A stretch of 64,000 nt of DNA. Source: Loxodes magnus. Taxonomy: Eukaryota > Ciliophora > Karyorelictea > Loxodida > Loxodidae. Below, one piece after another: positions 6,083 to 40,725 of this stretch. The DNA lies in contig CAMPDV010001949.1 of the NCBI GenBank assembly GCA_946699065.1, positions 1-64,000 of the forward strand, read 5' to 3'. The position numbers and the translations under genes were made by a program. Each line of letters opens with the position of its first letter. The stretch's first letter is position 1. The notes below the pieces were generated by a model. That model ran no database searches and was not told where the DNA came from. It saw only the letters and a program-made list of their open reading frames with translations.

Positions 6083-6939
6083 ATGATAAATAGGGAAAAA
6101 ATATGGAACAGAACATTAGACTCTCAAAAAATACTGCTAGGAAGGCTAGAAAACAAGCAGTTAAATAATCACGTAAAACTGAAAAAAAACAAGAGAGGTC
6201 TAGTTCAGAATCAGAAGGTAAAATTATGACAGGCTTTGTGGAAACAGAATAAGATATTACAGAGTTTCCCATGGAAATCCAAAAATGATTGAGGACTTGA
6301 AAAGGGTATCTAAAAAACGAGAAGAATCTATTTTAAACTAAAGTTTTCAAATACGCGAAATAATCATCAACATTAATGAGAATAATAATGAAATTGATAT
6401 TCATAAAATATAACTAATCAAAAATAAGCTTGTGACCCATGAACAACTATGGCTTTAATCCCAATAGTATTCAAAAAGAAATTCAATGATGGAAAATGAA
6501 AAAACTTAAATTGAAGTTTAAAAAGAAAAGAAAGTAGAACCTTAAATTATTAATCCAAAATTCGAAGAAAGATTACAAAATTAGAAAAAAATTAATTGCA
6601 AATAGCCGTTTAACTACACCTATAGTAAAAAGATGTTGATATTGCAATAAGTGGTATCATCTTCTTCGAAACTGCTGAAAATGAAGAAAATTAAATGAAA
6701 GAGAACAACATAGAACTTAACGCCAACTAAATCAACTTTGGATAACAGAAAGCAGTATCTACAAGTAAAAGCTTCCAGTACGCTATAATGAAAATACAAA
6801 ATGGTAACCTCCCACAAAATAAAAAGGGCCATGAAATATAACTACGTAAAAAAACTTTTCTACAGGTACCTGGTTGAAAATCCAGGGATAGTAAACTTTT
6901 AAACATTTTAGTAAAATATATATATAAAATGACAAATAG
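6083..6939 (+). mobile_element. ORF1-only retroposon K4
   Basis: The unit is flanked by an imperfect 11-bp target-site duplication, ATGATAAATAG (6,083 to 6,093) and ATGACAAATAG (6,929 to 6,939), and interrupts the LINE-2 ORF1 remnant. Its ORF starts at ATG 6,103 only a few bases inside the element (MEQNIRLSKNTARKARKQAV), continues into a coiled-coil region after a frame change near 6,280, and reaches the knuckle CWYCNKWYHLLRNC at 6,634 to 6,675, where Trp is a TGA. A conserved tail LWITESSIYKQKL follows. Near the 3' end is a hairpin with stem CCTGG/CCAGG and loop TTGAAAAT (6,869 to 6,886). No RT is encoded, so it must be mobilised in trans. Same family as units at 29.1 and 32.5 kb. Confidence 0.7.
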
Positions 6940-7145
6940 AATTTGACTTACAAGCAATAGAAAAAAAACAAGCAAGTTATAAGGATTTAAGATCCTGAAA
7001 GCTCAGAAGAATACGAATTAGAGACTTATTAATTTATACAAAACTTATTAAACTATAATTCTTGGCAAACCAAACAAATGTGACACCACGTAAATATAAC
7101 AATATTATTATTATAAGTTCATTATTGCATATAAATTAACTATTA

Positions 7146-7227
7146 TAGACGATTATAAACGATTATAAACGCTTATAAACGATTATGAACGATTATAAGC
7201 ATATAAACGATTATAAACATATAAATA
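7146..7227 (+). repeat. 10-bp minisatellite ACGATTATAA
   Basis: About six to seven head-to-tail copies of a 10-base unit (ACGATTATAA with single variants) end roughly 145 bases before the start codon of the Cys-Pro-Cys repeat gene. The array is kept in the duplicate at 52,605 to 52,686. Whether it has a regulatory role cannot be told from the sequence. Confidence 0.8.
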
Positions 7228-7371
7228 AGAAAAATATAGTGCTTCTTATTATTTTCTTATATACTTCATTTAGTATGCTTATATCGCTTAAAACTATAAA
7301 TATAAAGGAAAACGAGTATAAACGAGTCCAAGATCTGTTTAAAAGGTAGGAATGCCTAAGTATAATATAAA

Positions 7372-7995
7372 ATGAAGGTATAGGTTGTTTTTGTTCTACT
7401 CTTAGTTACATTTGCATTTTCTCTTAAGGTTTAGAAAAAAGAATCTAGGTCTTTATTCCAAAATAAAGCAAAATTGACTTCTTAGTCTAATTCTAAAGAG
7501 AAGAATGAAGGTTATGCTCAAATGATACAAAAGGCTGTGACTTATAATACCAAAGTAAAAGACCAGAACATGGAAATATTTTTGTAGAAGAAAAATAGAA
7601 ATCAAAAGGTAGGAGAAAGCTTAGAATAGCATGACCTAAATAATAAAGCTTAGTTAATTAATGAAGCTAAAAAAACTCTTTTATTGCAAAAGAAGTAAAA
7701 GCCTCTCTCTCTGGTCTAGAATAAATTGAAAAAGTCAAGCAAAAAGTGTCTTTGTGATCCCAAAAATACTAACTTGTTATAAAGCAAAGTAGAATGCCCT
7801 TGCTAGTCACATGCAAAAGTAAATTGCCCATGCTAAAACTAAGCAAAAGTGAATTGTCCATGCTATAATGCTGCAAAAGTTGACTGTCCTTGCCTAAATT
7901 AAGCTAAAGTAGATTGTCCTTGTAGAGAAAAGAAGATTGAAGCTTAAGGAAAATAACTTTCTTATTTATAATTTGGATTTAATTTTAACTCTTGA
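7372..7995 (+). CDS. Secreted protein with tandem Cys-Pro-Cys repeats
   Basis: An uninterrupted 207-codon frame runs from ATG 7,372 to the first in-frame TGA (7,993 to 7,995), with no internal TGA. The N-terminus MKVQVVFVLLLVTFAFS is a clear signal peptide. A Lys/Gln/Ser-rich middle section follows, then from about residue 125 a KCLC motif and five 10-residue repeats of the form KV(E/N/D)CPCxxxA. The paired cysteines suggest metal binding or disulfide cross-linking, as in metallothionein-like or extracellular-matrix proteins; this is inference, and no known family is recognised. TAA and TAG occur as Gln inside the repeats (CPCQNQA), so the code matters here. The duplicate at 52,831 has the same length with a Gly for Asp change. 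The gene is convergent with the next one. Confidence 0.82.
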
Positions 7996-8551
7996 ATATT
8001 AGTTAAATAAATAAAGCAATATCTGTATAAGTAAAAGAATTATAAGAATATGGTTAAAAACTAGAAATGAAGGAGGATAGAAATGGTATGGTTTAAATAA
8101 AAGAATGAAATAAAATTAGATAAATCTATATAATTTAGATATAAGGAGAATTAATTTGGCATACTATCTTAAAAGTTGTGCTTATTAAGTAATTTTCTAA
8201 TGTTTTATAATTATTGTGTATATCATCTTAGTGGTTTTTCCTTTTTCTATGTGAATATTTATAATTTTGTAAATAAGTTGTATAGCAAAATTAACTTTAA
8301 AACTTATAGCGATAACTCTCATTTAAGAAAGCTTATATAAATAACAAGGAAAACTATTAGTATTAAGAAGAAATAACATTCAAATTAGGCCCAACAATAT
8401 CAGTTTAAGATACAAAGTTTACAGAAATTAAAGTAGAATGATAGAGTTGAGAGCAAGCTACAAACATTTACGAGTTTAAAGATAAAATATTTATAATGAT
8501 CAACACAACAGCAAATCATTAAATTATTTATTATGTTTTTTACTTAAATTC
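7996..8551. other. Convergent intergenic spacer
   Basis: This AT-rich spacer lies between two converging genes. I see no further ORF with protein-like composition and no RNA gene. It must hold the 3' UTRs and polyadenylation signals of both neighbours, but no distinct motif stands out against the background. Confidence 0.5.
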
Positions 8552-9292
8552 TCAAAAGGGAACATTCTTTTTAAACTTTTTTTTCTATTCTTTTTATTGT
8601 TTATCTAAATTATCACTAGAGTATTTTATGTTCACCTGCTTATTAGTTTAAGCCAGAAAACTTTATAAAGCTATTTTTTCTTTATTCTATTATTCTTTTA
8701 GTAACTTTTGCTATTATATTCCTTGCTGTTGCTAGTGGATTATATACTCATAGGGCATCTTTTCATAGCTGCATTCAGTTGTCTAATAATCGCTTAAATT
8801 ATGCTGATGTTTACATTTAGAACTCTAGTCATATATCACACTAATTTCCTCAGGAATAGAATATTCTTCACTTGTTTGTGACTCTGGAGTACGCTTAGTG
8901 CCAGTTGATTTTTACTCTTCATTTAAGGAGTTTGAAGACCTATTTTCTTAGTTGTAATTATTCTGTTCTTTTACTATTTTTTCAAAGTACATTCTGGAAA
9001 TTTGGTTATTAAAGCGTGGAATTTATGTGTTATGCGGTTAATTTAATTCTGATGGGTTACTTAAGCTTTGAAGTGAAGTTTAATTAGAGAGGTTTTTTGG
9101 TGTAGTTTCATAAGATTATTCTTATATAGTGAAAAGAGCATTTTCAAGTTATTATCCAGTTAAGTATAACATTCTTTCTTTCTTCTTAGACTTCATCTTA
9201 TTAGATCTTCGTGGTGATGGTTTTCCTCACCGGTCACCCGCATCAACTGTGTCTAAATTACAGCAACAGCATAAATTGAAAGCTTATTTCAT
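8552..9292 (-). CDS. Hypothetical Gln/Asn/Ser-rich protein with an N-terminal Cys cluster
   Basis: A minus-strand frame of 246 codons runs from ATG 9,290 to 9,292 to TGA 8,552 to 8,554, with one internal TGA at codon 22 (read as Trp). The N-terminus MKQAFNLCCCCN has four adjacent cysteines, which could be S-acylated and tether the protein to a membrane; that is inference. A basic patch (RRSNKMKSKKKER) follows, then a long polar region rich in Asn, Gln, Ser and Glu with short poly-Gln runs, and a Lys-rich C-terminus. It is probably largely disordered. No domain is recognised. The acidic/polar composition and the length between TGAs make it more convincing than the short opposite-strand ORF at 9,129. 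It is kept intact in the duplicate at 54,011. Confidence 0.6.
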
Positions 9293-11274
9293 ATTTAAAA
9301 AGAGTAAATAATTCTTATACTAGCACTAAATAGCTTAGCTAAAGAGATTTAGCTATAACTAATAAATATCTTATGCTAAATAGCATTTCATTTAAACACT
9401 CTTAAGAATCTTTTGAACAAGCATTAGAACTATTTTACATATAAACCTCCACTTTCTTAAAAGCAGTAGTTATAAAGCATTAACTTCAAATCAGCAACTG
9501 GCTAATTAATCATTCAGATTTACAAATACCCCATTACTTATTAGTTTATAAGCAACTAATTAAGATTTGCTCTTCATTCTCCTTATTCCATTACAAACAT
9601 ACTAGTTATTGCTCTTAACCTAATTCTATTATTTTAGGATCTACTAAACTTATAAATAAGCTGATAAAGGATATTTGTATCAAGGATAAGTGTTCTGCTT
9701 AGTTTATTTCTTAAAGTATAAGAATTTTATTTAGCATTATACTTTAGCACTCCTAAGTTCTCTTACTTCTTTTAATAATTAATAGAAACAAATAAATTCA
9801 TAAGCTAAACTAATTATAACTTCATTTAATTAAGCATTATAAACTCATCAGGATGCTATTCACTATTTTCCTCATTTTCAGTCTATTTATTCTAAAAAAT
9901 ACAAGAAGAATAAAAATTTAGTAAAGCCTAAATATAAAACTAGATAATTAAAATAATAATAAAAGAGAGAAAAACTATTTATACTTTCCTTAATGATACT
10001 CACAATCCTTTCTATTTTATTTAGTACAAATCAAAATACCTTCCAAACCCAAAAACAAATATAATACTTATAGAATGCTTCATTTGAGAAGCATTTATAT
10101 TTAAATACCTTCTAACTTTAATTAGTAGTTTGATTGTTTGCTTTATAGATTTAGAGGTTTAAAATATATCTAAGAATAAATTACTAAACTATTAAATTCT
10201 ATTTATATAGTTAATTATAAAGATGTTTAGTAGAACTAAATACAAATCTAATACTTTGCTAGTTGGACTATTTTTATACCAGTCATACCTTCTTAATCAA
10301 TATTAACCTTACTTCTATGCAGACTTCATACCAAATTATACTTTTAAATTTTATATAATAGCCAAAACAGTCCTACATACAATCGCTTAAGATGCTTTAA
10401 TATCCAATTGTTTATTATTTTTGTTAAGTATTTTCTAAGCTAAAACTACTTCCCTATATTAAACATCTACTTCCCTATATTTGTTCTAAGCTGGTTCATA
10501 TAAAGTTTTAAACAAAGTAAGTTTAAGAATTTAAGCTTGACTCTATATAGGTTTTTCTAAATGATTAAAGGTTCTATTTATATAAATCTAGTAAGTAAAT
10601 GATAAGAATAGTGTAAATAAATGAAGTTATTTGTTTAGTGCTATATACTTTGCTTAGCTTAGTTATTTAATCTATTAAATTTATTTCACTATGGTACTTT
10701 ATTCTTAGCTATCATTTCTTAGTTTAAACTTTAAATTATAAATCCTTTAATTAATGTCTATCCCTTTTGCTTGCTAAACTTAAGATTTAATAATTAAATC
10801 TTTAGAGGAATATATTTATAAGTCTAAATATAATTAAGCAAGTATTTAAGAAACAAGTATAGTTATTTCTTTTATTATCTCTTCCTTTATTACCAATCTT
10901 TATGCATATCAACTATTTAAACTTTAATATTGCTTTATTAGATCAAACAAATCCATAAGTTTATATAATAATACTAGCAATTCTAAAACAAGTCGTTTAG
11001 TATAAGCTGCATTACATTAAGCTTTAATGATACTAATAAAGAAACTTAAGCTTCCTGATTTAATTAAACAACTAGCACTGTGAAATAGCTTATAAAGAGT
11101 ATATTTAAGTAGATATTTTCATAATAACTAAACTAAATTTTAAATAGACAAATTGGATTTAACTAGCTTTTTTAATTTAACTCAATTCAACTCTTAGCTT
11201 TTAAACTTAAATTGCTTTGCAATCAATTAGCTTAATACCCTATTTAAGCAATCTAAGTTCTTAAATTCTTAAAA
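9293..11274. other. Divergent intergenic region, about 2 kb
   Basis: The region lies between the starts of the minus-strand Gln-rich gene and the plus-strand receptor gene, so it should hold both promoters. It is uniformly AT-rich with many short recurring words (such as CTTAAGC and TTTAAG), and I find no frame with protein-like composition, no LINE or SINE signature and no RNA gene. It is almost unchanged in copy 2 (54,752 to 56,733). Confidence 0.5.
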
Positions 11275-14200
11275 ATGCCTTTATTAAAAGTATTGCCTTT
11301 ATTTCTCTCTATTTAGCTCTTTTATGGCTATATTATTTTAACTCTGTACTCTGATAAATCTGATCTATAACTCCTAGCAACAATAAGGAACAATATAAAA
11401 AATCACTAAGAAATTGTTTATAAGGAAAGAAAACTAACAAATCAATTCTAGATTCACTTTGACTTTAACTAAACCAAAGCATAATTTGCCTTAGCTTTCA
11501 TTGACATTACTAACTCTTATGTTTTTTCCCAGTAAATAGAAATAGTATGCTAACAGCATAAGATTATACATATCATTACTGGTGTTTAAAGACTATATGA
11601 GTCTGATTACATTGGCCACGCTGTTTTTTCGAATCCTTCAGCGGAAGAAGAATCTAAAGCTGTAATAGCTTTTTTCGACTATTTTAACTGAGAAAATTTG
11701 GGACTTCTATCAGACAAAAACGTTCAGCTGGTTTTGAATTTGCTGCAAGAATCTAAACTAAATATTAGAATCAGATTATTACTTCCAGATGTAAGAACTA
11801 ACGAAGAAATTATTGAACAATCAGGAGGAATGCTAAAAGGAATAGGTGTGAGCATTTTCTTCTTTGACTCAGACTCTGAAATGGTAATAAATATACAAAT
11901 AATAGCTAAACTTCTAGCTATCTAAAAGACAGGCTATTAATGAATTTTTGGCACTAAATCCTCTTTCCAAATATTTTAAAATATAGGAAGCGATGATTTG
12001 CAAGAAGGTTTATTACTTCTATCACCAGAACTGTTCTCATCTTAATCTCAATTAGACTGATATTATTTAAAATCCTATTTAGTAGATCTTAGTAAGCTTA
12101 ACTTTTACTAAGAAAGTGCTAGAAAAATTTATGAAGCTTTCTAATAGACTTAAAGAAAAATAAAGTTAGAATATAAAATTTATAATCTGCTTAATAAGTA
12201 GTTAGTTCAAATTGGCTCTATTAACAATTATCAAGTTAATTTTACGCAGCTTCCAGTATTTTTAGGGCCTACTTTTGAAATTCCAAGAGACGACAAAGTG
12301 TAAATTTAAGTATCCTATTCTAATAACGAAACTAACCCTGATGGAAGCAAGGCTGAGTGGTAGATTACAGTGATATAAGGATTAGAATTTGCATTTAGAC
12401 AGATAAACTTAAGAGAAGATATTTTGGAGTGATTTATTTTGAAACCATTTGGATATTCTGTAGGGGGAAGTAAATGAGTATATGAATATGGAGATTCTTA
12501 ATATTAAAAAATGAAAAATGAAATGGGAGTAGCTCTATTTACAACTTATTCATCTGGCATCACCAAGTAATGACTAAATTATTTATATTCTTAAGGTTAA
12601 TTCTGCCCAGCAGTTGGAACCACTCCTACTAACGAAATATTTTCGAATCAGACTCAATTTCCTAATTTCGTAAGAGTTATTAATTCTGATTCTTATATGG
12701 CTATTTTGCAAGTTACTGTAATAAGGCTATATAACTGAGAGAAAATTGCTATTCTTTATGACAACGATATATGAGCTAAAACTTTAGGATTAGCTATTGA
12801 GTCAGAGACTTAAAGATGAGGAATCTCAATAAAAAACAACAAAAATTTGAGAATTTATCCATCGGCACTTGCTCTTAGGAATGAATCTGAATGATAACCT
12901 TAAGTAGAAGCTTTTCAAAAAAGTGGAGCTAGAATAGGAATTTGTGTGTGTTACCCCGAAGATGCTTATAATTTTATTTTTCCTTATTTATATAAACTAG
13001 GAGCACGAGCGGGTGATTGAGTCTGACTAGCTAATGAATGAGTGTAAGAAACCTATTTGCAAGGAGCTAAGGACAATGAAAATTATGCAAACGCTTTAGA
13101 AGTTATTAAAGGAACTTTACAATATAATCCTTCTTCTTGAAGTACAGAATATGGAGAGATAATGTATTAAAAATTCCAAGATGAATATGGAGCTGCTCCA
13201 GATTGGCTTGCTTCTTTTAGCTTTGATTCAGCTCTTATTTTAGCAGCTGCTCTTGATTTAACTATAAAATAAGGTTAAGATTATGCTGATTGAAATACTC
13301 TTAACAAAGCTTTGAGAAAAACAAAAATTTTAGGAACTACTGGAGTACTAGAAATCTAAACTGGAACTAATGATCCCGTAACAAAGCGATATGATATCAT
13401 AAATGTAAGAAAGGATAATAAGGAATGGAAAGCTGAAAAAATAGGCTTATTTTGTGCAAGTTGCTCCATAATATTGAATCTTAATAAAGAAATTATGTGA
13501 GGAGATGGAAGTTTAGAAATACCTAAAGATCAAATAGAAGACATTGATTGCCCTTTTAGAAGTAGAGAAATTGAAAATTTTTCAGATGGTGAAAAATTAT
13601 TTTTTGGAATATCAGCTCTTATTATCCTGATATCAGCAATCTTTACTTTTTGTGGATTCATGAGTTGACGCCAGAGTTTATATATAGAATTAAATTAATA
13701 AACTGAAATGACGGTATCTGATGGAATTTGATATCTTTCTTTTCTTATTGAGTAGTGCTAATGAATTTCTGTCGGACCTAACTTTAAAGCAATTCATAAA
13801 ATATTGGCAGATATTTTTAACACCTTCAAGTTAGATTTATACGATCTTCTAGATTGAGAAAATGATACCTTCTAGATAATATTCTGGATATCTTGCATCA
13901 TCGTATTTATTTGAATTATAATGATTGTTATTCTATGTCTTAGATTAGAAGAAAAATTTCCGAAAAATAATATTGCATCATATTTAACATCTCTTTCATT
14001 TTTTTTATTACCAATTATAGGACAAATTACATATCTTCCAGTACTGTATATACTAGCTGATGTTTTTGTTTGCATACACGCAGTCGATATTGACAGAAAC
14101 GAAAGTTTAGACTGGACTGAAAGCTACCTTGAAAGAGATTGCTATTTTTAATGTTGAAAAAGTGATCATGAAATATAAGTGGTAATTTCATCTATTTGCT

Positions 14201-15075
14201 TATTCATTTATATTCCTACAATAACTTTCTTACGTCCTTTTGTTTAAGAATTACAATATGATGCTCATATAAAGTCAACACCAAAGTTCATCTTATTGAA
14301 ATCTTTTGTTCAAACCCTCACAACTTTGGCTCAGAAATCATTATCCATAAAGAGTTAGAAATCATATGGTATCTTTTTTGTAATTACCTTCGTTGTGTTC
14401 ACTTTTTTTAGCTGTAAGATGAAAACTTACAATTATGGAAGAATTTACTTTTTACAGATTATATGACTAATTGCTGTAGTATGGATATCAGCTTTAGCAA
14501 CTATAAGCATGCTATCAGACACTGAAGGAAAAGATATGTGGTTCGCTATTCTGATAGTTGGATGGTTCCTCTTATTTTCAAGTGGATGGATATTCCTCAT
14601 AAAGAAGTATCCTAAATATCTCTTTAGGTAAAAATAAGATAATACTCATCTATTTCGCTTTGCATTTAAACCATGGGCAAACGTACATATATTGGAGTAG
14701 CATATCTAAATGTATAAAAGTAAAATTTTATCCATTTCACCAGAAAAGAAATAATCAATTTACTCCCTCTTTAGTAGGTAAATTACAAAAATACTAAAGA
14801 AAAGTAATTCTACATGAAAAAGTGAAATACTCTCTTCTTAAACTCTTGAAGTTGTAAAGGAATAGAAATAGTGTGAAGTAGAAAATTCATTCTAAAAGAA
14901 AATATTGCAAGAGCATAAATAGCAACCTATTTTTTTCAAAGAATAAAGATTTGACCAAGTATAGACTTTAGATGTCAAATAAGTAGATGAAAATTAAAAT
15001 AAGTTTAAAAGTAATAAGTAAGTATCTTAATCTTAGTAATTTAGGATAAACCATGAATAATACATTTCAAGATGA
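11275..15075 (+). CDS. Receptor-like protein: two PBP1-type ligand-binding domains and about seven TM helices
   Basis: One frame of 1,266 codons runs from ATG 11,275 to a tandem TGATGA (stop taken at 15,073 to 15,075), with no intron needed. It uses TAA/TAG for Gln and many TGA for Trp. A hydrophobic N-terminus (MPLLKVLPLFLSIQLF) acts as signal peptide. Residues of about 60 to 310 resemble a type-1 periplasmic-binding/ANF-receptor domain (SYVFSQQ, HAVFSNPSAEEESKA, FFDYFNWENLGLLSD). A second such domain spans about 320 to 760 (GLEFAFRQIN, LYNWEKIAILYDND, SFDSALILAAALDL). Membrane helices lie near 776-797, 868-891, 901-927, 969-985, 1032-1047, 1060-1082 and 1092-1113, followed by a polar cytoplasmic tail of about 150 residues. 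The layout recalls family C GPCRs such as GABA-B, but the helices show no diagnostic motif and the loop between helices 1 and 2 is unusually long. The ligand is unknown. Confidence 0.85.
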
Positions 15076-15470
15076 TGAATAGTTAGTCGTTCAGGATCTA
15101 GAGGAAAAAAATCCTAGTTGAGAAGATAAATCTTTAACTTGAATTTAATATAGTTAATGATGCTTATAAATATATGATCTACATAGAGTAAATAACTATT
15201 TAAAAAGGGTATAAAAATAAAGTTATATACTTATATAATAAATGAAATTAGGGATAATAAAAAGTTTAACTCAAACTTACTCTTATCATTTCAATTAACA
15301 TCTAAGATAGAAAAGTGAGATAAAAGATATTAATTACTACTTTGTTCAATGTTTTGTTTATCTTCATACAAGGATTTCTTCTACATATTATATCTTTAAT
15401 TTTAATATTTCCATTGCGAATTATTATTTCAGGTTGACCTAATAATATCTAAATTAAAACTGGCTATCAA
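15076..15470. other. Receptor gene 3' flank
   Basis: AT-rich sequence between the receptor stop and the SINE. The receptor frame stays open past the TGATGA for about 45 codons to a further TGA, so a slightly longer C-terminus cannot be excluded. The pairs of adjacent stop-capable codons and a drop in similarity between the two copies after 15,230 favour the earlier stop. Confidence 0.45.
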
Positions 15471-15957
15471 AAGCGAAATAATAAATAAATTTGATTATAG
15501 AGCGCGTAGCACTCTCGTTGGTGCGCAGCTCTTTAAAAATGTTTCATACTGACAAGAATGTTTGTTACTGATAAAATTATCAGATACTGATAAACTTTGT
15601 TCAATACTGGTATAATTATTCAATACTGATATAATTTAGAATACTCGTATCTTTAATACTTGTTGGAGGTCCAAGGACATGGCAGGATTGTGTCTCATTG
15701 CATCACCAAAGCAGAGGACGACATGTGTCAATTATGGGTACTTAAATTCCCCACCTCTGATGAAGCTCGCAATATTATTTCTTTTTCGTTCCAGAATTAA
15801 AAATTAAAATAAGTCAGTGCTGAAGGTCAAACTAGCAGATGTCTCGAGGCCAAGCCAAAGCAGAGGAAGACATAAAGTCGATTATGGGTACTTAACTTCC
15901 CCAACCTCTTATGAAGATGACCTTGTTGCTCACCTTCGAACAATGAGCAAAGCAATT
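15471..15957 (-). mobile_element. SINE S1 with LINE-1-type 3' hairpin and tail
   Basis: On the minus strand the element runs from about 15,957 to a 3' end at 15,471 made of the hairpin AGAGC..GCACC/GGTGC..GCTCT (15,499 to 15,533), ATAATCAAA and a TTTATTTATT tail. This 3' end is the one LINE-1 carries. The body contains several CAGTATTGAA-like units and a structured, less AT-rich part. That part is present twice in tandem here (both halves begin with a TTTAAGTACCCATAAT-like block near AAAGCAGAGGA), while the duplicate at 60.9 kb has only one, about 140 bases shorter. Possible pol III boxes are not clear. The same family occurs at 23,944. Confidence 0.75.
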
Positions 15958-16267: not shown

Positions 16268-19146
16268 TTTCAGTTTATAAATAAATAAATTTGATTATAG
16301 AGTGCGTAGCACCTCGTTGGTGCGCAGCTCTTTAATAAATGTTTCAATACATGTCTGTTTCTTCAAGTAAGCCTTCAGGTAATAAAAATTCTTCTCTTAT
16401 TAATTCCATATCTTCATCATTTTCTTCTTCAATATCTCTTGTTCTTCTGTCTTCTATCTATCTACGTTTTATTGATTCTTTGTTACAAGCGTCCATTATT
16501 TTTTTTTACATACTTTGCTAATTTTCGTTTCTAATTCTTTTCTTCTTAATCAAGCTTTTATAAACTCATAAAAACTATCCTTTTCCTGCTCTATAATCTT
16601 TTCCTATTTCTTTTTTTCATTCAATTTTCTTTTCTAAGTATCCTTTTTTTCTTTTTTCTAATATGTTTTTGATATAATCTTTTATTATCAAGTCAGTTTT
16701 AGCTCTTTTTTACTCTTCTTAGACTCTAATGAATTTTTCGAATTTTGCCGTACCTCATATTATATCAAATAGTTCCATTCCTTGTCTTTCTACTCCTATT
16801 ATTCTTAACTTTCTAATACATATTTATCTACTTTTTTTGTATTCTGAGCATTTTTCTATGATGTGCCTTTCGTTTTCTCTTGCATTGTTACAGAAAGGGC
16901 ATTGACTTGTCATAACTAGGTGTCTTTCTTTTAAGCAATCCTAGCTTCCATTACATCTCGTTCTTATTCTAAATAGATAACATATTTCTTCTTTTCTATT
17001 TTTATTGTATCTCAGGTAGTTGGGTGATCCTACTACATATTCATCAAATCATGTTTTTCTATATTGTAATGTTGCTATCATTTACTCCATCCTTTCTCTA
17101 TCTTCTATGTATACTCTATGTTCTCAAATTGCACGATTAATGTTTTTCTTCCCTTTTTGATTATTATTACCATCATCTATAAATATATTTTTGTCTTCAA
17201 TTTTAATTCTAATTTTATTGTCGTGCAGTATTGTTCAAAAATAAAGTTCTCTTCTTTACTTAGGTCGAACATTAATCAATCTACTGTTTTTCCTTAGTTA
17301 CCTATTAGTCTACCTCTTAATCTCAGCGTTTTCTGCCATAGGTAATGTTTAAATTTCATAAACTGTAACTCGTATTCTAGCATCTCATTTTACACTTAGA
17401 AAGGGGCATCTATGATTGCTCGTAAAGATCTTCTCTATATTATTTCTAATTGTTCCATCACTTATTTTCCTACAAATTATTCACAATATGGGATAACTTC
17501 TGTCCCATTACTGAAAACTGAGCTTACGAAGGTTTTTATCCTTATTTATGCATTATATGGTGTTAATCCCTTATTCATTGTTATTTTACCCAGTATTCAT
17601 GTTTACATCTTTTATGCTGCTTCTAGTCTGTTCTCCATGTGTTTTTCAAAGCTGATGGTTTCTTCTATTATATGCCCTAAGTACTAAAAGGACGTTACTC
17701 TTTCAATTCTTAAGTTTCCCACCTCAATAGTATTGCCTATATTTTCTCAGTTTCTATTTTCTGCTGCTTTTCATATCATTCATTTTGTTTTATCTGCAAT
17801 TTCCAGTTTGTACTTTTCTGCCCATTAAGTTAAATTTTTGATTACTTCCTCTAATTATTCCCATTCGCTTATTAAGGATAGGTCATCTGCATATGCAAAA
17901 CATCCTGCATATATTTCTTATGTTCATCCCTCTTCATTTTTATAGTCTATTGTGATTCCTAGCTTTTAACTTCCAAGCTATGGAGAATTCTTGCTATTAT
18001 TAAGTTAAATAGTCTTGGCGACGTTATGCTTCCCTGTTTTTGCCCATTATTTGTCGCGAATGACTTTGGTATTTAATCATTGATTTTCAGTTTAATTTCT
18101 TCTTCACAGTAGAAGTTTGTTAATAGTTTAATTATCTATTCCGGTACTTTTAGATCGTTTAGGATTTATCGTATGTCCTTTCTTAGCGCTGAGTCTTAAG
18201 CTTTCTTAATATCAACAAATATTACAAATAAATCTTTTTTGTTCCGTATTGATCATTCCTATACTGTTCTTAGGTTGAAAATTTATAGTGAGCATGATTT
18301 TCCTTTTTTAAAGCCATATTAATATTCGCTTTCATAATTATGCAGATATCCTTATAGTTGCTAGAAAATTCATGCATCTACTATTTTTAAAGCATGATTC
18401 AGTAAAGAGATTGGTCTATAATTCATCGGGTTCATCTGTCCTCCTTTTTTGTATATTAATATGATGTATTATTATTTCATCTCTTAAGGTATTACTCCCT
18501 CTTAAATCATCTTAACTATCATTTTACATGTTACTTCTGTTAGTTTTTTCCCACCTGCTAATATTGTGCCTACTTGTATTTCATCAGGTCCTGCTGCTTT
18601 TCATTTCGCCAATTAGTTGATGATTTCTCAAATTTCATATTCGTTTACCACTATTTATCTCTTGTTTAAGAATTTAGTTGGTAGCGTATTATCGCCATCT
18701 TCATACAGTTTCTACCATTCATCCCTGAAAGTATTAACATCTTCTTTTAATAAGGGTACTCATTAATTATTTTTTCTATTAAGTAAGTTTTTTAGTTTCT
18801 TCCACATTTCTGTTAGATTTCCTTTATTTACATTGTCCATAAATAGGTTAAGTTAGATTTATCTATTTTTCTTGATTAAATGTATTCTTATCTTACTCTT
18901 TGGTATTCTCTTTGATTCTCAATTAATTGATTTTCATTTATTTGTTCTCTGTTCTTTACCCTTTATTTTAATTGTTTGCTGCATTTTCTAAAGATTTTAT
19001 TACACAATTTTGTTGTTTCTGAATATTTATGTATCTTAGAGTTTTATGTTTTGAATTTTCCACATACTATTTAAACTCCTTCTTATATCTTTTTCTTTCA
19101 TCATTTATAAGTCTATGTGCCGTTTAGGTTATCAATTTCTTCTTCT
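16268..19146 (-). mobile_element. LINE-1 copy B, 5'-truncated
   Basis: The 3' end has the TTTA tail (16,281 to 16,290), the conserved hairpin (about 16,297 to 16,332) and an ORF2 stop TGA at 16,344 to 16,346, only about ten bases before the hairpin. Upstream on the minus strand the C-terminal zinc motif CPFCNNARENERHIIEKC (CX2CX8HX4C) lies near 16,890 and the YADD motif near 17,893. Similarity to copy A stops abruptly at 19,146, in the RT region, leaving about 2.9 kb. Such 5' truncation is typical of target-primed reverse transcription. Its counterpart in copy 2 is at 61,582. Confidence 0.88.
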
Positions 19147-30893: not shown

Positions 30894-33275
30894 AATAATA
30901 ATATAAAAAAGTTTCAATACTTTGAGTATTGGGACATAACTGCACTACTTATAGTTTATTTCATGCGAATTATGTTAATTATAAGAGTTTATGTAAGTTT
31001 ATTATCAACCTCTAGTTAATTATTCCTACTCCTTTTCTTTTGTTTCTTCTATATTGGTTCTAAATTGTGTTCTCACATTTTCCTCTCTCTCTTCTTATTT
31101 TCAATTTTCTTCTGATTTGTTTTCACAACCACTATTTAAGTTTCTTTCTTAAATTATATTTTTTCTCCCATCTATTTTTCTTTTTGTTTCAATTGCTAAA
31201 TTTTTAAAATTTCTATCCATTTTTTAAGCAATTTTTGATGAAAATTTTTAATATATTTGTCAATCTTATGGGTTTTACTTTTTGTAAAGTTTGAATTAAT
31301 ATAATTTTAGTAGTACAGAATTAGTTTTTGATAATCTTTCCATTAAATATTTTTAGATTAGACAATTCCTAAAAGACATCTTTATACAAAGTACATTCAA
31401 ATATATGATCGAGTTCATCATGAGCTAAACCACATGCATAATCAATTCAATTTCATGTGCTTATGTGACGCAAACTAAGTTCGTATTAGAAATTATAGGC
31501 GAATGTCCTCAGTTTGAAAATAGAAATTATCTCTTATATTCTATGTCTGTTAAACTTAGTATAAGTTATTTCAGGAAATACACTTTTATTATTTTAAATT
31601 GATTACATGTATATTTAAGCTGTAGGCATCCGTGTATTCCTTTAAAAGCATTCTTATAAAATTGTTCTTTCACTCTTAGAATAATATGCATATTAAAATC
31701 TTTTATATTTATCATACTTTCAATATCAATTTTATATTATTCAAGGCTTTTATTTATGTATTTCATATATGGCAAATTGTATTGCTTGCATTTAGAAAAC
31801 TAGAATGCTATATCAGAGTTCAGGTTTTCTCTACTGGTTTGTTCTAGTTTAAAATAAAAACGCATGAATTTTAATAGCCATATGTGTAAACGGAAGCCAA
31901 TTAAGATCAATGAAGTAAGATTCATTGAATGCCGATTAAGGAGATTTAAATGCTTTCCTTGAAATGAGTCTTTGTAATTTAGTTATTTAAGCTTTCATTC
32001 ATTTAAGTCCTGACATGATACTTCAAGGAGTTATATCGCTTCCATATTCTATTTTAGTCAAAATAAACATTCTGGAAATTGTTTTAAAATTGAGTGGTGA
32101 TACTACTCCGTACTTAGAAAGAATTTCTGATACTTTCAAAACTGCTACTCTGAAGTCAGATACTTTGCTTTGTAGTTTATAATTTTATTTATTTCCCAAT
32201 CTGTATCCAAGATATGTAGTTTTGTCCTTTTAAACAATAGGAATTCCATTAATATTAGAAAATATTTTTTTAGTGGAGTAGAGTAATTTTTATGGATTTT
32301 ACTATGAATTACTCAATTAAGTCATCTGGAAAGCCACGAACCACAAAATTTGTGTAGCAGATATTATAGCCATATTGATGTTATTTTTCTTCTAAATATC
32401 TAATTACAATATCATAGTAAAGTATTGCAAGTACAGGTGCATGGCTGGTTGGTTATATAATAATAATAGTAAACTAAAAGTAATTAAAGTTTAGCATTCC
32501 CTGGATTTTCAACCAGGTTTTTGCTACCATTTTTTTAGCGTGGAAGGAACCACAGAGGATCTTCTGTCTTTTATGTGAATAGTTTTCTCTTGTAAATCCC
32601 TGTTTAGGTTATTCAGAGTCTGCTGAGTATGCTTAACGTTCTTTATTGTACTTTTATCTAAATTTATCTTCACTAATCGCAATTTTGTAATAAGTGTCAC
32701 TTTGATTTGCAATAATAGCATTGTTTGCCTTGTTTTTTCTTGAATCTCTTCAGAAATACTTTTTTTTCAAGTTAATCGATTCTTTTGATTAAATCTATAT
32801 TAATCTTTTAGTCATTCTATTTTTCTTAAACGTTTGCTTATGTAGAAACATTTTCGATAATCATATTTTGTTCTTGCTTAAAATTCGATTGAGATTATTC
32901 ATATAGTTACTATTCCGTGACTAGATTATTCTAAATCAATTATCGTCTAATTATTAGAAGCTCGTTATTTTAATCTTCAATAGTATTCATTAGTTCTCTT
33001 ATTTTTTCCCCTTGGTTGTAAATTGTTTCCTAATAATTTTGTATTATTGTTTTCATTTGGTCAAGCTATATTTATATTTCGGATTATTTTTATACCTTTA
33101 CTGGATTCGATTCTATTGTTCCGATTATGATTTTTCCTTCAGAGGAGGAACTTGATTTATCTTCTTCTTGTTGTTGCCTCTGCATTTGTTTCGCAGCTTT
33201 CCTTTTTGCGTTCTTAATTTGGTTTTTGGAAAGGCGAATAGATTATTCCATTTTTTTTATTGCTGGTTGGTTATA
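30894..33275 (-). mobile_element. LINE-2 copy 2, 5'-truncated, with full 3' end
   Basis: The copy is bounded by a perfect 17-bp target-site duplication TTTGGCTCTTAAATAAT (30,877 to 30,893 and 33,276 to 33,292). It starts in RT motif B (HAPVLAILYYDIVIRYLE near 32,420) and carries a decayed motif C (FPDDLI), the thumb (TTYLGYRLGNK near 32,200) and a C-terminal Cys/His motif (CGLAHDELDHIFEC near 31,420). The 3' end is a perfect 7-bp hairpin CAATACT-CAA-AGTATTG (30,920 to 30,936) followed by an ATT microsatellite. Unit K3 (32,459 to 33,261) is nested a few bases from its 5' end. It gives the best view of the LINE-2 3' end. Confidence 0.8.
32459..33261 (-). mobile_element. ORF1-only retroposon K3 nested in LINE-2 copy 2
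   Basis: 803 bases with a perfect 15-bp target-site duplication GCTGGTTGGTTATAT (32,444 to 32,458 and 33,262 to 33,276). The ORF starts MEQSIRLSKNQIKNAKRKAA near 33,250 and ends with the knuckle CYYCKSKWHLLQNC near 32,720 to 32,680 and LWITQTGIYKRKL. The 3' end has the hairpin CCTGG-TTGAAAAT-CCAGG (about 32,499 to 32,516) and an ATT tail. It is a close relative of K2 and K4, and younger than its LINE-2 host copy. Confidence 0.8.
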
Positions 33276-33678
33276 TTTGGCTCTTAAATAATTCTTAATA
33301 ATTCTTAAGATTTATTTTTGTTTTTGCTCTTATTTTTAATGCTTCTAATGTAATTAAATTTATTTATTGAAAGCATTACATCAGATTGAGAAAGTTTTAA
33401 TTTTGAAAGCTAATTTAGCAAAATTAATCCTTTTATTTCAATTTTATTGTCTTAGTTGTAGCATCTAAGCACTAAATTGAAGGTAAAATTTGCTTATCTA
33501 TACCTATAATTCCTATTTAATCTTATTCTTAAAAAGTAGTTTGAAGTAAAGGAAGGCTTTCTTGTCTATTGCTTAACTTCAGTAAGCAAATATATTAATT
33601 CTATTCTAGTAAACTCTAATTAATTAGTTATTTTATTATAACTATAATTATAAACTCTAATCAGAGTTCTGCTTACTA

Positions 33679-35055: not shown

Positions 35056-35560
35056 AAACACGGAAAAATGGAGAACAAAAAAACTCAAAAATTTAGTTAA
35101 GAAAGGCTAGAAGAGAAAAAATCACCGGAATCTTCTTCATTGAATCAAGACAAAAGACTCCAAGATAATTAGGACAACATCTCATTAATCGAATAAGAAA
35201 ATAGATCCGTATATATGTAATGTGACATAATGAAGAAAATTCTTATAAAGCAGGATGAGAATATTTACAATCTTTCGGAGAGAATAAGAGAATTAATGAC
35301 AGATATTGAGCAACTGAACTTATAAACTATTTATTTAAAGAAGCAACACGTTAAAAATAAAATTTATCAGTAGAAAAGTTTTGATGTTAATCTTAAGATA
35401 ATTAAATAAAGGAAATTCCAATGGTTACTGAAGTAACTAAGTTTGATATTTTGACTTAATTAATAGAATGCTTAAATCAAAAATTGGAGAACTGGACTAC
35501 CAAAATATTTAAAAAATTTGAGAAATTTATTCTTCTGAAAAAGAAACAAAAATAAAAAAT
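35056..35560 (+). mobile_element. Coiled-coil unit U4 (ORF1-like remnant)
   Basis: A plus-strand ORF starts MENKKTQKFSQERLEEKKS after an A-rich stretch, the same arrangement as the MEQN and FKKGFY units. It has a heptad-like middle (NLSERIRELMTDIEQLN) but no zinc knuckle that I can see. Flanks and 3' end are undefined. Confidence 0.4.
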
Positions 35561-36159
35561 AAAGAGATCCTGATATTATAATTCATTTCAACATTTAATA
35601 ATAAAATATGGTAATTTAGATAGAATTGCTTACATCTTCTCATTCTTTATTTATTTTAAGCTTTCTCTTTTTTAAATAATTAAAATCTTCTTGACATTAG
35701 ATTTTTGTGAAATATTTTATTTATAAATCTAAACACTTCATTTAAGACCTTGGAAATGAGTTTGTATGACTGTGGTTATATAATATAAGATACCTTAAAA
35801 CATAATTCCTAAAATTTTAACTAAATTTAACACTTGATAATAGAGTAGTATTACATTTTAAACCATGATCAAATATCTTATTACTCCACATACGTACTAA
35901 ACATTTTTAATAGGATAATTATTTTTTTGTAGATCCTTCTTTAAATTAATTTGATTGAAAAAATGTTTGCAGTGTCTGCCGGACTTCTGCTTAAGTAAAA
36001 GTTTATAAATTTGAGGAATCTAGTTTTTAATAAGCTCTAGAACTTGAGTATCTTCCCATCGAACCATCCTTCTCTTATCATAGTTTACTCTTGTTGTATC
36101 TAAAATTTCTTCTAGTTCTATATTCATTTTTAGTCCATAAACTGCTCCATTTTCCCTAT

Positions 36160-36731
36160 ATCATTTCTGATTCTTTCTTTTTCTTATCTTTCATTAAATT
36201 TATTTTCTTCAAAAATGTTCTTTGACTTTTCTGAACTCACAGCAATACTTCGATAAATGTAATTGACTCTTGCAGTAGTAGCATATTTTCTTTACTTTCT
36301 TTGTTTTTTATTTTTTCTTTATTGTTAAAGAGGTTTTTACTATTTCCATTTTTTCAATAATTTTCATTTACTCAGGTAAATTTTGCTGACTTTAGAAGTA
36401 CTTCTAGATCAGTATAGTGTTTTCAATCTGATAATTTTACTCTTGAATTTTCTTAACTTGGATGTTCGTCTGGCTAAATTATTCTCTTAAGTATTTCTAA
36501 AGGGCATCTAATTCTATCACTAGGTTTGCCATCCTGAGGTCTAAAGTATATTTCAGCCCATGCTAGATCTATTCAGCATTCTCTTTGGGGAATTTCATAA
36601 CCTCATCCTGGAGATTTAAGATCAATTTATGAACTGTATCATGCCATCTGGTCATAAGAGTTAAACTCAGAAGCCTCCTGGTATAGGGCAGACTTCAGAA
36701 CAGGCAATAAACTTTTTCTGAATTCGGACAT
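36160..36731 (-). mobile_element. Coiled-coil and zinc-knuckle unit U2, related to U1
   Basis: The minus-strand unit starts MSEFRKSLLPVLKSALYQEA at 36,731 and after a frame change matches U1 closely: LNLQDEVMK, IQHGLKYTLDLRMAN, ELDALQKYLREQFSQTN. The knuckle CYYCKSQLHLSKYC lies at 36,242 to 36,283. The FKKGFY head of U1 is absent. Conservation of the coiled coil between U1 and U2 at the protein level, with many base differences, suggests the ORF was under selection before it decayed. Confidence 0.58.
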
Positions 36732-37169
36732 TTTTCTCAAAATTATAAGATTGATTTTCACGCTTATATACCCTGATAATTTAACATCTATTTTATTAAT
36801 TCAAGTAAGTAATTTAGGAAATTGCTATAGATACCTAATTATTCATTGCATATTTTAGTTTTTTTCATTCTTCTAAATTTTTTAAGTAGTTGCATTACAG
36901 TAATAATGGTGTATTTATGCTTCTTTTCATATCTTTTAAATTTTTAGGTTGATTTGTTTTATAAATTACATGGATCGATATATAAAGATCAAATAAGTAA
37001 TTAAATTTAATCATAGTATTGAAGAACATTTTCAGTCACTAATGAGAAGAAAAAATATTGCTAAATGGGGAAAATTATAATATCTTTTATTTGCGATGTA
37101 GTAGAACTAAAAGAACTTCATAGCTATAATGAGCAGGAAAACCAAAAAAATCATATCTATATGAAATGC

Positions 37170-38350
37170 CCCGTTAAAATTTAAATGGCTATTTAAAATA
37201 CATTTTCAAAATTATTTTCATGCTTTATTCGTTTTTTTTTAATTCCAGTTATTCCTTTTTTATATTTCAACTGTTTTTCCTCCATATTCTGTTTTTGGAA
37301 ATGTAAAATGTATGCATATAGTTTTAAATTGTTGATGGGTCACATTTTTATACCTCAACAATTAAAAGGCAGCTTTTACATCATAGATATATACTTGAAA
37401 TAAATTTATTTTGTAATTGGGATTATTTTAATAGAATAAATAGTCCTAAATATGCATCTTTCTATTTTAGTAATTGGTTAATTATCTAATTTCAAATTTA
37501 AGTTTTCTAATTTTTAATGCTTCTTAAAAATTAGATGCATTCAATTATATTGTTCTTAATGTGCAACATACTAAAATCTAATTGTTTTAGTTATTAATTG
37601 CTACATTTAATAGGCAGATTTTTATAGAAGAATCTTATTATCTGCTCAAGCTAATATAACACTTGAATTATGTTTTTTGATTCCAATTAGGAGCTTTTAT
37701 CTCCAAAATCTAATTAAAATGACATAATACAAAAATACTAAAACTGGTTTATGCAAACTTCCTTGTAAAATTATTTTGTTGAACTAAAATGTTTTAATAT
37801 TAATTCTATCTTTAATTTAATTTTAAACTAAAAGAGTTTTTGAACTGCAACTTCTTGCAGTTTAACGACCCCAACACTTCCTTCATGGGATAACGGAGAT
37901 ATCCTGTTGCTTTCGAAAAGCAGCTGCCAGGGAGCTCCATCGCTATGGACAGCCAGGCTTCAAGCTCCTACCAGGAGTGGATAATCAAGAGGAAGACGTT
38001 CCCTTGCAAAGGTTGATTTTGACCAGGGACTTTCTCAGCGACAGGAAAGGAACTTGTTCCTAGCCATAAAGTCAGAAAGTATGATTCAGAAGGTCAATCT
38101 CAGCTCCCACCATCTTTTTAATTATTAATTCTATCTTTAATAAACGATATTTTTAAGCTTTTTAGATGACTCTAATTTTTTTATTAGTTCAAGTGAAAGT
38201 TCGACTCTCTTAAATTGAGTAAATTAGATTTCTTTTAATGGAGTCAATATTTTCAACTTCTATCTATCTTGCAATATTAATCTTTCTTTTAGCATTTATT
38301 AGATGTTTTTCAATGATTAACAGTCTCACCCAACTATATTAAGTAGTTTA
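37170..38350 (-). mobile_element. LINE-2 copy 3, fragment interrupted by SINE T2
   Basis: From 37,797 downward the minus strand reads RT motif B (QGSLHKPVLVFLYYVILIRF), a decayed motif C (ILAWADNKIL) and the thumb up to about 37,170. Beyond the SINE, at 38,142 to about 38,350, it resembles the N-terminal RT helix seen at 5.05 kb (VELSLELIKKLESSKKLK). Motif A is missing, so there was an internal deletion before or after the SINE came in. Confidence 0.6.
37817..38122 (-). mobile_element. SINE T2, with perfect target-site duplication
   Basis: 306 bases, reverse-oriented copy of SINE T1, flanked by a perfect 19-bp direct repeat TATTAATTCTATCTTTAAT (37,798 to 37,816 and 38,123 to 38,141). The hairpin CTGCAACTTCTTGCAG is at about 37,847 to 37,862. 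The perfect repeat implies a younger insertion than T1. The pair forms a 12.4-kb-spaced inverted repeat by chance of two insertions. Confidence 0.82.
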
Positions 38351-38544: not shown

Positions 38545-38760
38545 GCTTCTTATGAGGTTTTCAACCAGATACAAATATTTTTTTATATATATTAGATTCC
38601 TTTATCATTTTTTTACATAAATAGTCACCATTCTTCGGCTATCTAACTAAGGCTTCTTCTATCTCATATCTTTTTTAGTATATTATATTTTTATTTAAAA
38701 TCTTAATAGTTTTCTTCAATTTCTTTAATTATCTTTTCATTTCGGCGCTTTGAAGTAAAA
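38545..38760 (-). mobile_element. 3' remnant of an ORF1-only unit (K5)
   Basis: The plus strand shows GAGG-TTTTCAA-CCAG at 38,554 to 38,569, the hairpin of the K units in reverse, followed by a CATTTTTTTACATAAATAGT-like block that matches the 3' coding part of K2. The upstream part on the minus strand is too decayed to trace. Confidence 0.42.
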
Positions 38761-39512
38761 ATACTTTTTATTAATTTATGGGAAGAAATAAAATATTGCA
38801 TCTCTATATCTTTAATTTCTATTTAATTTTGAGAGAATTAAGTCTAAAACTATATCAATCTTGTTGTTATTTCAGTTTTTTAAATTTCTATTTAATCATT
38901 TACTTAATTAGATACAATATCAGTCTTAATTACTTCATAATTCATTTAAACATCCTCAATTTAGTTGGATTAGGATATGCTATAACTGTTCTTCTGTTAA
39001 AACTTTATTTGAGCAAATTAATTTCTTTAACATATAATTTCTAAAATTAATTTGTTTAATATGCTTTATTAATTCTCTTATTCTATTTGAAATATTTTAG
39101 ATTAGCTCATTCTGCTTGCTTAGAACTTTCCTTGTTTGTCATATTACTTAGATATAAATTTATTTTCCTTTTTGATTATTGAAATGTTATCTTATTTTTA
39201 ATAATCGTTATCCTTGATAAGATTACCAAGATTTTGGTGACTTTTACTTTTTTACTTAAAGTCTGCCTTATTCTAGCTTTTATTTGCTAAATTTAAATCT
39301 TTATAATTCTCAATTTTCTAGATTGTGTTTCTTTTAAATATTGGAATACCCTTCAGTGTATTTAGTTCCTAAGAAATTATTCGAAAATTTAGCATATTAT
39401 TTAGAAAAGAGTGAAGAATTATATATAAAAATAAAATAGCTCCTAAGAAATAACAGAACTTTGAACAAAACACTTAAACAGGAAAATTCTCTAAAAAAGC
39501 TAAATAATTACA

Positions 39513-39690
39513 ATGAGTGAAAGTGAGAAATATGATTCATATGACGAACATTAACCACTTGGAAATCAAGAATTAATAAAACTTCTGACACAAACTCAAA
39601 TAGAAATATTATCTAAGTCATTATAAGAGTTTATGTTCAAAAATAGATACCTCACTGATATAAGTTGAAAAATTAATAACGTCTTTGCTT
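39513..39690 (+). other. Short ORF, possible coiled-coil remnant
   Basis: An ATG after an A-rich stretch opens a frame reading MSESEKYDSYDEHQPLG and a leucine-rich helix (ELIKLLTQTQIEILSKSL). It loses protein-like character after the first TGA (about 39,669). It may be the start of a damaged ORF1-like unit or a small gene. It lies 200 bases upstream of U3 on the same strand. Confidence 0.3.
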
Positions 39691-39888
39691 GAGAAACAAT
39701 ATTAATCATCATAAGAAATAGAAAACAAACTGGAACAAAGAATTCTTTAAATTTAATAATAAATTCAGGTAACGCTATTTTCGTTTTAACAGAATTAATC
39801 CGATCCTATGGAAATAGAAAATGAAGCCTCAAATTAAAATAAACAGTAAACATTAATTTAAAATAAGTAGTAAATTAAAAAAATAAAA

Positions 39889-40725
39889 ATGGTAGAAGAG
39901 TTCAAGAAAGGCTTTTATACCACCTCCTAAAAAGGGGAGAGAAAGTAAGAACCCTCATCTTTAACTCACGCATCTTCTTCCTAGAAATAATCTTCTTCTT
40001 AAAACCTTCAAGAATAATAGACTCAACTAGGAACTTCCAGATCAACCTAAAAGATGGGACAAAAGCGCCAAAAGGCTACCCCGATGACACCAACTGAAGA
40101 GGAAGGACCTAGAAAGGTGCTGGAGATGCAAGAAGCAGCAGCCGTGCGAGAGTTTGCGATGCCATAGTTCCAGGAAGAACAGGCATAAATTTTAGTCGCA
40201 TTCGCTGACCTGAAGGAGGAAGTAAAGAGGCTACGATTAGAGAATAGAGCTCTAAAAAATCAAGTTACTGAGCTTAAGGAATGGAAAGAAAGCTTCTGGG
40301 AAGTCTACGATCGAGAGCAAAACACTTTCTTCAGGGAAATGGGATTGCTGCAGCAAAGAACAACTGTGCTTGAAGAGAACAGCAAGTAGCAATAGTAGTA
40401 GGAATTCAAAGTTAGGACAATTCAAGATCCAAAGGACATAGAAAGAGCTACTAAGTTACCGAGGAGACTAGACAAGAAATGAATTAGGAATAAACCAAGA
40501 TGTTTTGTATGCAAACAAACTGGACATAAATATAGACAATGTTAGAAATTGAAATTAATTAAATAATAGTACTAATATTAGGATAAGATTAGACGAGAAT
40601 TCTGTGACTAATTTTATCCCTCAGGAGGTAAATCTACGAACCGAAGTGGTACACAATCCAAGGCGACTGAAGAAAGAGTTCTGAAGAGAGCTGGTTCCAG
40701 CCAGGTTATCAAACTGGTCCTGTGA
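39889..40725 (+). CDS. ORF1-like protein of retroposon U3, intact in the reassigned code
   Basis: One frame of 278 codons runs from ATG 39,889 to TGA 40,723 to 40,725. It starts MVEEFKKGFYTTS (head shared with LINE-1 ORF1), then a polar Ser/Gln/Thr region, a coiled coil (LKEEVKRLRLENRALKNQV) and the perfect zinc knuckle CFVCKQTGHKYRQC at 40,501 to 40,542. An in-frame TGA at 40,480 precedes the knuckle and must be Trp for the protein to be whole. Just after the stop comes the hairpin GAGG-TTGAAAAT-CCTC, which keeps the K-unit loop but has a changed, still paired stem. No RT follows. The protein probably binds its own RNA; this is inference from ORF1 proteins. Confidence 0.72.

Follow-up and report, generated by a model that had tools for sequence, protein, structure and literature searches.

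Nonautonomous retroposons usually lose all coding capacity. HAL1, a nonautonomous non-long terminal repeat (non-LTR) retroposon with several independent origins in mammals, is described as encoding only ORF1p, the protein of open reading frame (ORF) 1 (PMC5753468). HeT-A is described as encoding Gag only, with no pol; its gag is conserved by selection, and its reverse transcriptase (RT) presumably comes from TART or TAHRE (PMC5537684). In trypanosomatids, Pr77 is described as a 5' module common to L1Tc and NARTc (PMC4035085). Here we analyzed the first 64,000 nucleotides (nt) of contig CAMPDV010001949.1 of the ciliate Loxodes magnus (C1949:1-64000, hereafter the window) and searched the 705,730,643-base assembly for copies of the short coding units it contains. 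These units very probably represent families of nonautonomous non-LTR retroposons, ~0.9 kb each, whose only remaining gene is a gag-like ORF1. Two of them, U3 and A29, occur as complete units with target-site duplications (TSDs), are present at ~400-550 and ~160 exact-motif places, respectively, and contain no RT. ORF1-only non-LTR elements are already known; new here are that several families with two types of ORF coexist (U3/K2 and A, see below), that U3 and A have a 3' structure in common, and that no parent was found.

The Loxodes units resemble HAL1 in that ORF1p is the only protein encoded, and the parallel with HAL1 drawn in a first-pass annotation of the window is a fair one. HeT-A is at least as close, being a gag-only element under purifying selection, which we observed between lineages for A and K2. 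HAL1 derives from L1, whereas we found no long interspersed nuclear element (LINE) that matches the units in ORF1 body or 3' end; in addition, the Loxodes units have no poly(A) tails, and several ORF1-only families coexist. In contrast to HeT-A, which goes to chromosome ends and has a long 3' untranslated region (UTR), Loxodes insertions are scattered and flanked by TSDs, and the tested units have short 3' UTRs. NARTc and RIME are likewise short elements with a 5' module common to a LINE, but they are described as truncated LINEs, whereas the Loxodes units have an ORF conserved between lineages and a 3' end that differs from that of LINEw, the LINE of the window. Unlike a short interspersed nuclear element (SINE) or a noncoding deleted element, the Loxodes units keep selected coding capacity. 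The words ORF1, nonautonomous, SINE, and zinc do not occur in the main text of the Loxodes genome paper (PMC11441545), and no ciliate report of ORF1-only elements was found among the titles and abstract beginnings of the open-licence PMC papers listed by our searches.

In outline, conserved sequence opens with an A-run just before the ATG; the ORF encodes a zinc knuckle and a middle region that is helical and probably a coiled coil, and the element closes with a 3' hairpin and a short tail of microsatellite type. U3 (39883-40795, plus strand; both ends approximate) starts with the A-run and contains an ORF from 39889, the helical middle, the CCHC knuckle CFVCKQTGHKYRQC at 40501, a 3' hairpin at 40722-40754, and a TTTAA-type tail. 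K2 (27566-28550, plus strand) is flanked by a 15-nt TSD (27566-27580 and 28536-28550); its ORF starts at 27592 and is followed through a CX2CX6HX4C knuckle to a hairpin (GTGG..CCAC) and an ATTT tail. The U3 and K2 proteins begin with M..FKKGFY. Proteins of the A type, encoded by the 6.1-, 29.1-, and 32.5-kb units, begin with MEQ.IRL. Among these, A29 (29056-29933, minus strand) has a 16-nt TSD (29918-29933 and 29056-29071), an open ORF of 270 codons (29903-29094), the CCHC knuckle CWYCQSNYHLLRRC, a two-tier 3' hairpin, and an (ATT)n tail. A32 (32444-33276, minus strand) has a perfect 15-nt TSD (33262-33276 and 32444-32458), an ORF from 33251, and the CCHC knuckle CYYCKSKWHLLQNC. The annotation had reported three units with clean TSDs; three units, K2, A32, and A29, have clear ones here.

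To count copies, protein matches and exact 20-mers were located in the assembly; counts are of places, with each copy of a duplicated contig counted. The U3 protein gave 139 scored matches out of 4801 loose candidates, the A29 protein 142 out of 13042, and the middle part of K2 150 out of 8825. The A29 protein reaches an equal score of 495.7 bits at 58 places, in each case along the full 270 residues, a sign of very recent expansion. Exact 20-mers of U3 were found at 407 (5'), 546 (knuckle, in the middle), and 426 (3' UTR) places, and those of A29 at 156 (middle) and 169 (3') places. Spacing was compared among the matches listed, for U3 on contigs C1-C126 (76 of the 407 5', 100 of the 546 knuckle, and 87 of the 426 3' places) and for A29 up to contig C776 (99 of the 156 middle and 100 of the 169 3' places). 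There, 59 of 76 U3 5' motifs were paired with the knuckle motif at 602-627 bp, 64 of 100 knuckle motifs with the 3' motif at 181-214 bp, and 49 of 76 5' motifs with the 3' motif at 815-840 bp. No other spacing was detected for U3 pairs within 8 kb. The 5'-to-knuckle spacings fall into two classes, 602-613 bp (21 cases) and 619-627 bp (38 cases), which fits an 18-nt insertion or deletion. For A29, 84 of 99 middle motifs were paired with the 3' motif at 187-218 bp, and none at another spacing. Thus, all paired spacings compared are those of a ~0.9-kb element and never those of a LINE. By this measure, U3 and A29 showed no full-length copies in which the same ORF is followed by an apurinic/apyrimidinic endonuclease (APE) and RT, the arrangement that the annotation had named as speaking against its proposal. 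The proposal itself, that ORF1-only retroposons spread as such, is supported, with the spacing test covering these two families. An ORF1 protein without RT or endonuclease was established by spacing for U3 and A29 and by reading for the other units.

Next to the spacing data, the edges of individual insertions were determined for 20 U3 loci chosen out of the 139 rows, ten per alignment class. Judged by their flanks, they represent 16 independent insertions (L030-L032 belong together, as do L034/L036 and L037/L047, and L039 duplicates U3). All 20 loci have an A-run before the ATG as the 5' edge, and all end at the same AT-rich terminus except L037, whose 3' end is lost and which was left out of the TSD tests. 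The fetched copies are 93-98% identical, and L030-L032 are >99.5% identical. A TSD of at least 9 nt was present in 13 of 16 independent insertions versus 16 of 240 mismatched flank pairs, and one of at least 12 nt in 8 of 16 versus 0 of 240; with duplicates kept, the result was 16 of 20 rows versus 9.7% of 380. In the window, the TSD test covered K2, A32, A29, U3, and A6. U3 itself has a 9-nt TSD, which is at chance level, and its duplicate L039 has one of 19 nt. For A6, only a 6-nt repeat at chance level and no TSD was found. The TSDs and the defined 3' end are a signature of target-primed reverse transcription as seen in DNA. The ATG follows the TSD after only a few nucleotides, so the leader of a transcript would be very short.

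RT genes were then mapped relative to the ORF1 matches, using the best 150 of 3403 RVT_1 candidates and the best 130 of 7796 LIN2-type candidates. None of the 139 U3 and none of the 142 A29 matches listed had one of these RTs within 6.5 kb downstream. In the control with LINEw ORF1, 23 of 111 matches had RVT_1 2977-3339 bp downstream. Two of the 139 U3 matches, L038 and L042, have an RT of the LIN3 type 0.5-0.6 kb downstream that is absent from these lists. Because the lists miss such cases, it is the spacing test that carries weight.

LINEw (44850-50335, minus strand) encodes an ORF1 with the N-terminus FKKGFYTTS and an ORF2 with RT and an apparently endonuclease-like region; it ends in a hairpin (GAGC..GCTC) and an ATTT tail. 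Further copies lie at 1-4878, 16280-19148, and 61599-64000. The N-terminus of U3 is common to LINEw ORF1 (E 1e-5), and K2 carries the same motif. The rest of ORF1 and the 3' end of U3 and K2 are not common to LINEw, and no parent LINE was found. A C-terminal likeness between U3 and LINEw ORF1 (E 0.022) was weaker in the family majority and absent in a profile comparison and is not claimed. LIN2, a second LINE, is young: 38 of its 39 other places are 98-100% identical and one is 96% identical, with the 3' boundary at 590-602 in 37 of the 39. Its tail resembles the U3 tail (TTTTTAATTTAATTTA). LIN2 was considered as a candidate partner of U3: the tail is similar and the 3' fold differs, the LIN2 sequence read being its 3' half.

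The 3' ends of U3, A32, and A29 can be folded into an inner stem of 4-5 bp, an 8-nt loop UUGAAARU, and an outer stem of 4-6 bp. The outer stem sequences differ among the three, and the inner stems of U3 and the A units differ by paired changes. In shuffle tests, z was -2.95 (U3), -2.25 (A32), and -2.29 (A29); it was unremarkable for A6 (-0.23), K2 (-0.22), and LIN2 (-0.34). LINEw (-3.0) and LIN3 (-5.1, over a longer stretch) also fold, into shapes that differ from the UUGAAARU hairpin. The common two-tier hairpin of U3, A29, and A32 suggests one recognition system. At the 5' end, z was -3.2 for K2 and -0.5 to -1.7 for the other four. Tails are ATTT in LINEw and K2, TTTAA in U3 and LIN2, and ATT in the A units; these matches hint at possible links between the elements and the LINEs. 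Short elements at 15480-15766, 23974-24281, and 60931-61276 also end as LINEw does, in a hairpin and an ATTT tail; their body consists of TATCAGTATTGAAC-type repeats, and they are possibly a SINE mobilized by LINEw.

We also compared codons between and within lineages. Between A29 and A32, compared over 253 codons, differences number 107/79/143 by codon position, with a nonsynonymous rate (dN) of 0.48 and a synonymous rate (dS) of ~3, which is saturated. Ten pairs of K2-family segments (61-91 codons) have proportions of nonsynonymous differences (pN) of 0.11-0.28 versus synonymous ones (pS) of 0.68-0.99. A29 differs from its L048 copy at 3/2/6 sites by codon position. The differences between lineages are mostly synonymous, showing that the ORF is maintained without an RT. 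Thus, the protein is maintained between lineages, as observed for the A and K2 lineages.

The genetic code affects how these frames are read. The somatic (macronuclear, MAC) assembly of L. magnus is described as comprising 706 Mbp and using NCBI table 27, in which all three stops may be sense (PMC11441545); under this code, translation ends only at a TGA close to the mRNA 3' end. RT matches in the assembly carry TGA, TAG, and TAA as sense codons. Since all three stops can be sense, "open" or "full frame" means only "not frameshifted." The annotation had assigned full frames to K2 and U3. K2 uses three frames, with shifts near 27809 and 28195, and does not have one. The U3 frame holds up to its last codons, with a shift near codon 248 relative to most listed relatives, which stop aligning with U3 at residue 247-250. 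The last TGA before the 3' end is codon 272 in 9 of 10 unshifted U3-family copies examined, and the last TGAs of U3 itself are codons 279 and 283. The cleanest frame among the units of the window is that of A29, open across its 270 codons.

Structure and family searches were also performed. No ORF1 protein exceeded any Pfam cut-off (U3 reached 13.7 bits for zf-CCHC, with a cut-off of 20.8), the best matches in a PDB search had E values of only 0.19-0.58, and no Rfam family matched the window at the gathering threshold. Homology between U3 and A29 outside the knuckle was unsupported by comparison. In the AlphaFold model of A29, residues 52-107 form a long helix at low confidence. The predicted helix and the conserved CCHC would fit a role as ribonucleoprotein (RNP) or chaperone protein without proving it. 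The annotation had called the proteins coiled-coil zinc-knuckle proteins: the knuckle stands, and the coiled coil is probable, judged by a look at the sequence and by this one low-confidence model.

Several observations weigh against ORF1-only retroposons under selection. When three RT families were scanned, a same-strand LINE RT was present downstream in 6 of the 20 fetched U3 loci (L038, 0.5 kb; L042, 0.6 kb; L046, 5.2 kb; the duplicates L034/L036, 5.7 kb; L029, 6.2-6.6 kb). In L038, U3 is followed almost at its tail by LIN3 ORF2 (RVT_1, E 8e-14), and the flanks of U3, of LIN3, and of the two together showed no TSD. The UUGAAARU hairpin was seen in no LINE; LINEw, LIN2, and LIN3 fold otherwise at the 3' end. 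Constraint is weaker in the C-terminal part of A6, with dN/dS of ~0.33 and 0.45 against A29 and A32, and the K2-family segments were chosen by protein match, which favors conservation. Within U3, dN/dS is 0.41, a value that includes neutral decay after insertion, with position counts of 1622/1182/1548 (19 rows, 171 nonindependent pairs; L031 and L032 omitted, duplicates L034/L036, L037/L047, and L039/U3 kept). The A29 ORF contains no in-frame TGA from codon 207 to the 3' end (~codon 269), and its L048 copy likewise lacks one in that stretch, although this code calls for a TGA close to the mRNA end. Finally, the AlphaFold model of A29 is weak (mean pLDDT 51.5).

With respect to the RTs, the 14 other fetched loci had no RT match within the 4-8 kb fetched. 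In each RT-adjacent locus, the U3 3' end stands between ORF1 and the RT, and the sequence downstream of U3 differs among independent loci; the RTs are therefore read as neighbors and not as parents. The LINEw copy of L046 starts with a 5' end of its own. The LIN3 copy of L042 is truncated at the 5' end, with a TSD of ~16 nt by eye on the flanks (10 nt in the script match). L038 (1160-4750 as oriented) contains a complete U3 followed by LIN3 ORF2 on the same strand, possibly a template-jump chimera or a rearrangement. As a U3-ORF2 parent or as such a chimera it was rejected, having no TSD and an arrangement not repeated in other loci. L029, with an A-like ORF1 fragment before a LIN2 RT, was also rejected as the parent LINE, since the A-like piece ends in a 3' tail of its own, the RT starts mid-domain, and by eye the arrangement reads as a nested old copy. 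Elsewhere in the assembly, RVT_1 matches recur 2501-2532 bp apart, nine on C5131 (5395-26349) and three on C20 (2028-7877). These arrays are a LINE RT fragment that has become a tandem repeat.

According to the proposed mechanism, the ORF1 protein would coat its own mRNA as an RNP or chaperone protein. A LINE-encoded endonuclease and RT, supplied in trans, would recognize the 3' structure, and the RNA would be inserted by target-primed reverse transcription. That the ORF is conserved implies a benefit to a copy from making its own protein, i.e., preferential action in cis.

A different arrangement, which we consider unlikely, is a stable split system. In this case, the U3/K2 and A replicons would have converged on or exchanged the UUGAAARU 3' hairpin (seen in U3 and A) and would provide an RNP protein required by one or more enzyme-only LINEs, with ORF1 and RT persisting in the same nucleus as separate genomes that depend on each other. 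In a bipartite version, for which we see little chance, an enzyme-only LINE such as LIN2 would depend on the ORF1 protein of the short elements, both being separate and mutually dependent replicons. LIN2 is young, its tail is like that of U3, and none of the LIN2-type RTs listed lies within 6.5 kb downstream of any of the 139 U3 or 142 A29 matches. However, that list holds the best 130 of 7796 candidates, the LIN2 sequence read is its 3' half, so that LIN2 may have an ORF1 of its own, its 3' fold lacks the UUGAAARU loop, and the tail likeness is of low complexity.

It is very unlikely that the units lack an independent life and are pieces of longer LINEs, cut short at the 3' end or by internal deletion. 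Internal deletion is a likely historical origin, the N-terminal module of U3 and K2 is common to LINEw ORF1, and in L038 and L042 a LINE RT follows U3 on the same strand within less than 0.7 kb. Nevertheless, 20-mer counts are nearly even along U3 and A29, every compared spacing is that of the ~0.9-kb element, and the short unit is itself bounded by TSDs in A29, A32, K2, and 13 of the 16 independent U3 insertions. For U3 and A29, this explanation is thus largely refuted. Highly improbable, too, are processed retrocopies of host zinc-knuckle mRNAs with selection acting on the host gene: the units are mRNA-like (they have TSDs, no RT, and one ORF that starts close to the 5' end) and a conserved host gene would likewise give mainly synonymous divergence, but the tails are TTTAA, ATT, or ATTT repeats rather than poly(A) and follow a structured 3' end common to the U3 and A families, several distinct families exist, the U3 N-terminus is common to a LINE ORF1, and U3 places fall into the two spacing classes (602-613, 21; 619-627, 38) that fit an 18-nt insertion or deletion.

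The window as a whole contains eight CCHC zinc-knuckle units (seven with the exact motif, and K2 with its expanded one) and a few degraded relatives. A six-frame scan detected the exact CX2CX4HX4C motif at 5884, 6634, 24673 (minus), 29369 (minus), 32720 (minus), 36283 (minus), and 40501; in 100 order-1 Markov sequences, the mean was 0.02 and the maximum 1. Six of the seven lie in units named by the first-pass annotation, and the seventh (5884) in an unlisted one; a zinc-knuckle unit was present at all seven places that the annotation had named. A6 (6083-6925, plus strand; ends approximate) starts with MEQNIRLSKN, has a frameshifted ORF from 6103, and carries its CCHC at 6634. The 24.3-kb unit (24340-25060, minus strand; ends approximate), with CCHC CQYCRHLRHIERNC at 24673 and an (ATT)n tail, stands apart from both types. 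The 36.2-kb unit (36050-36750, minus strand; ends approximate), with CCHC CYYCKSQLHLSKYC, is frameshifted and is a relative of K2 by its middle region. K2 has inserted into an older unit (27186-28674, minus strand), leaving two pieces (27186-27580 and 28533-28674), the unbroken paralogue of which, with CCHC CGYCYKYVHKVNQC at 5884, lies at 5506-6023 (plus strand). Two degraded units are located at 35069-35638 (plus strand; A-like by eye) and 38761-39254 (minus strand; 68% identical to the 35.1-kb unit and A-like by eye only). A32 adjoins, apparently inside, an old LINE RT; RT remnants flank it, and LIN3-like DNA lies at 31202-32152.

Segments 1-15765 and 45456-61219 are 98.1% identical, a duplication that brought the second copy of A6 (51562-52347, plus strand). 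The contig extends to 89559, with further copies of K2, A29, and U3 at C1949:73036, 74317, and 84384. Together, this indicates either that the contig is duplicated in tandem, its period being ~45 kb, or that the assembly is in error here. A 350-bp interspersed repeat, richer in G+C, is present at 25115-25465 and 37811-38164 (copies 90.8% identical), and by eye, sequence resembling it also occurs in L029, L038, and L047.

The coexistence of several ORF1-only families with many recent copies and a conserved protein makes it possible to test directly why ORF1 is kept by an element that lacks RT. Candidate reasons are RNP assembly in cis, capture of a foreign RT, and mutual dependence. The repeats of L. 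magnus are described as largely unclassified, with 757,000 copies and 366 Mbp in the somatic assembly (PMC11441545), and ORF1-only elements may account for some of them.

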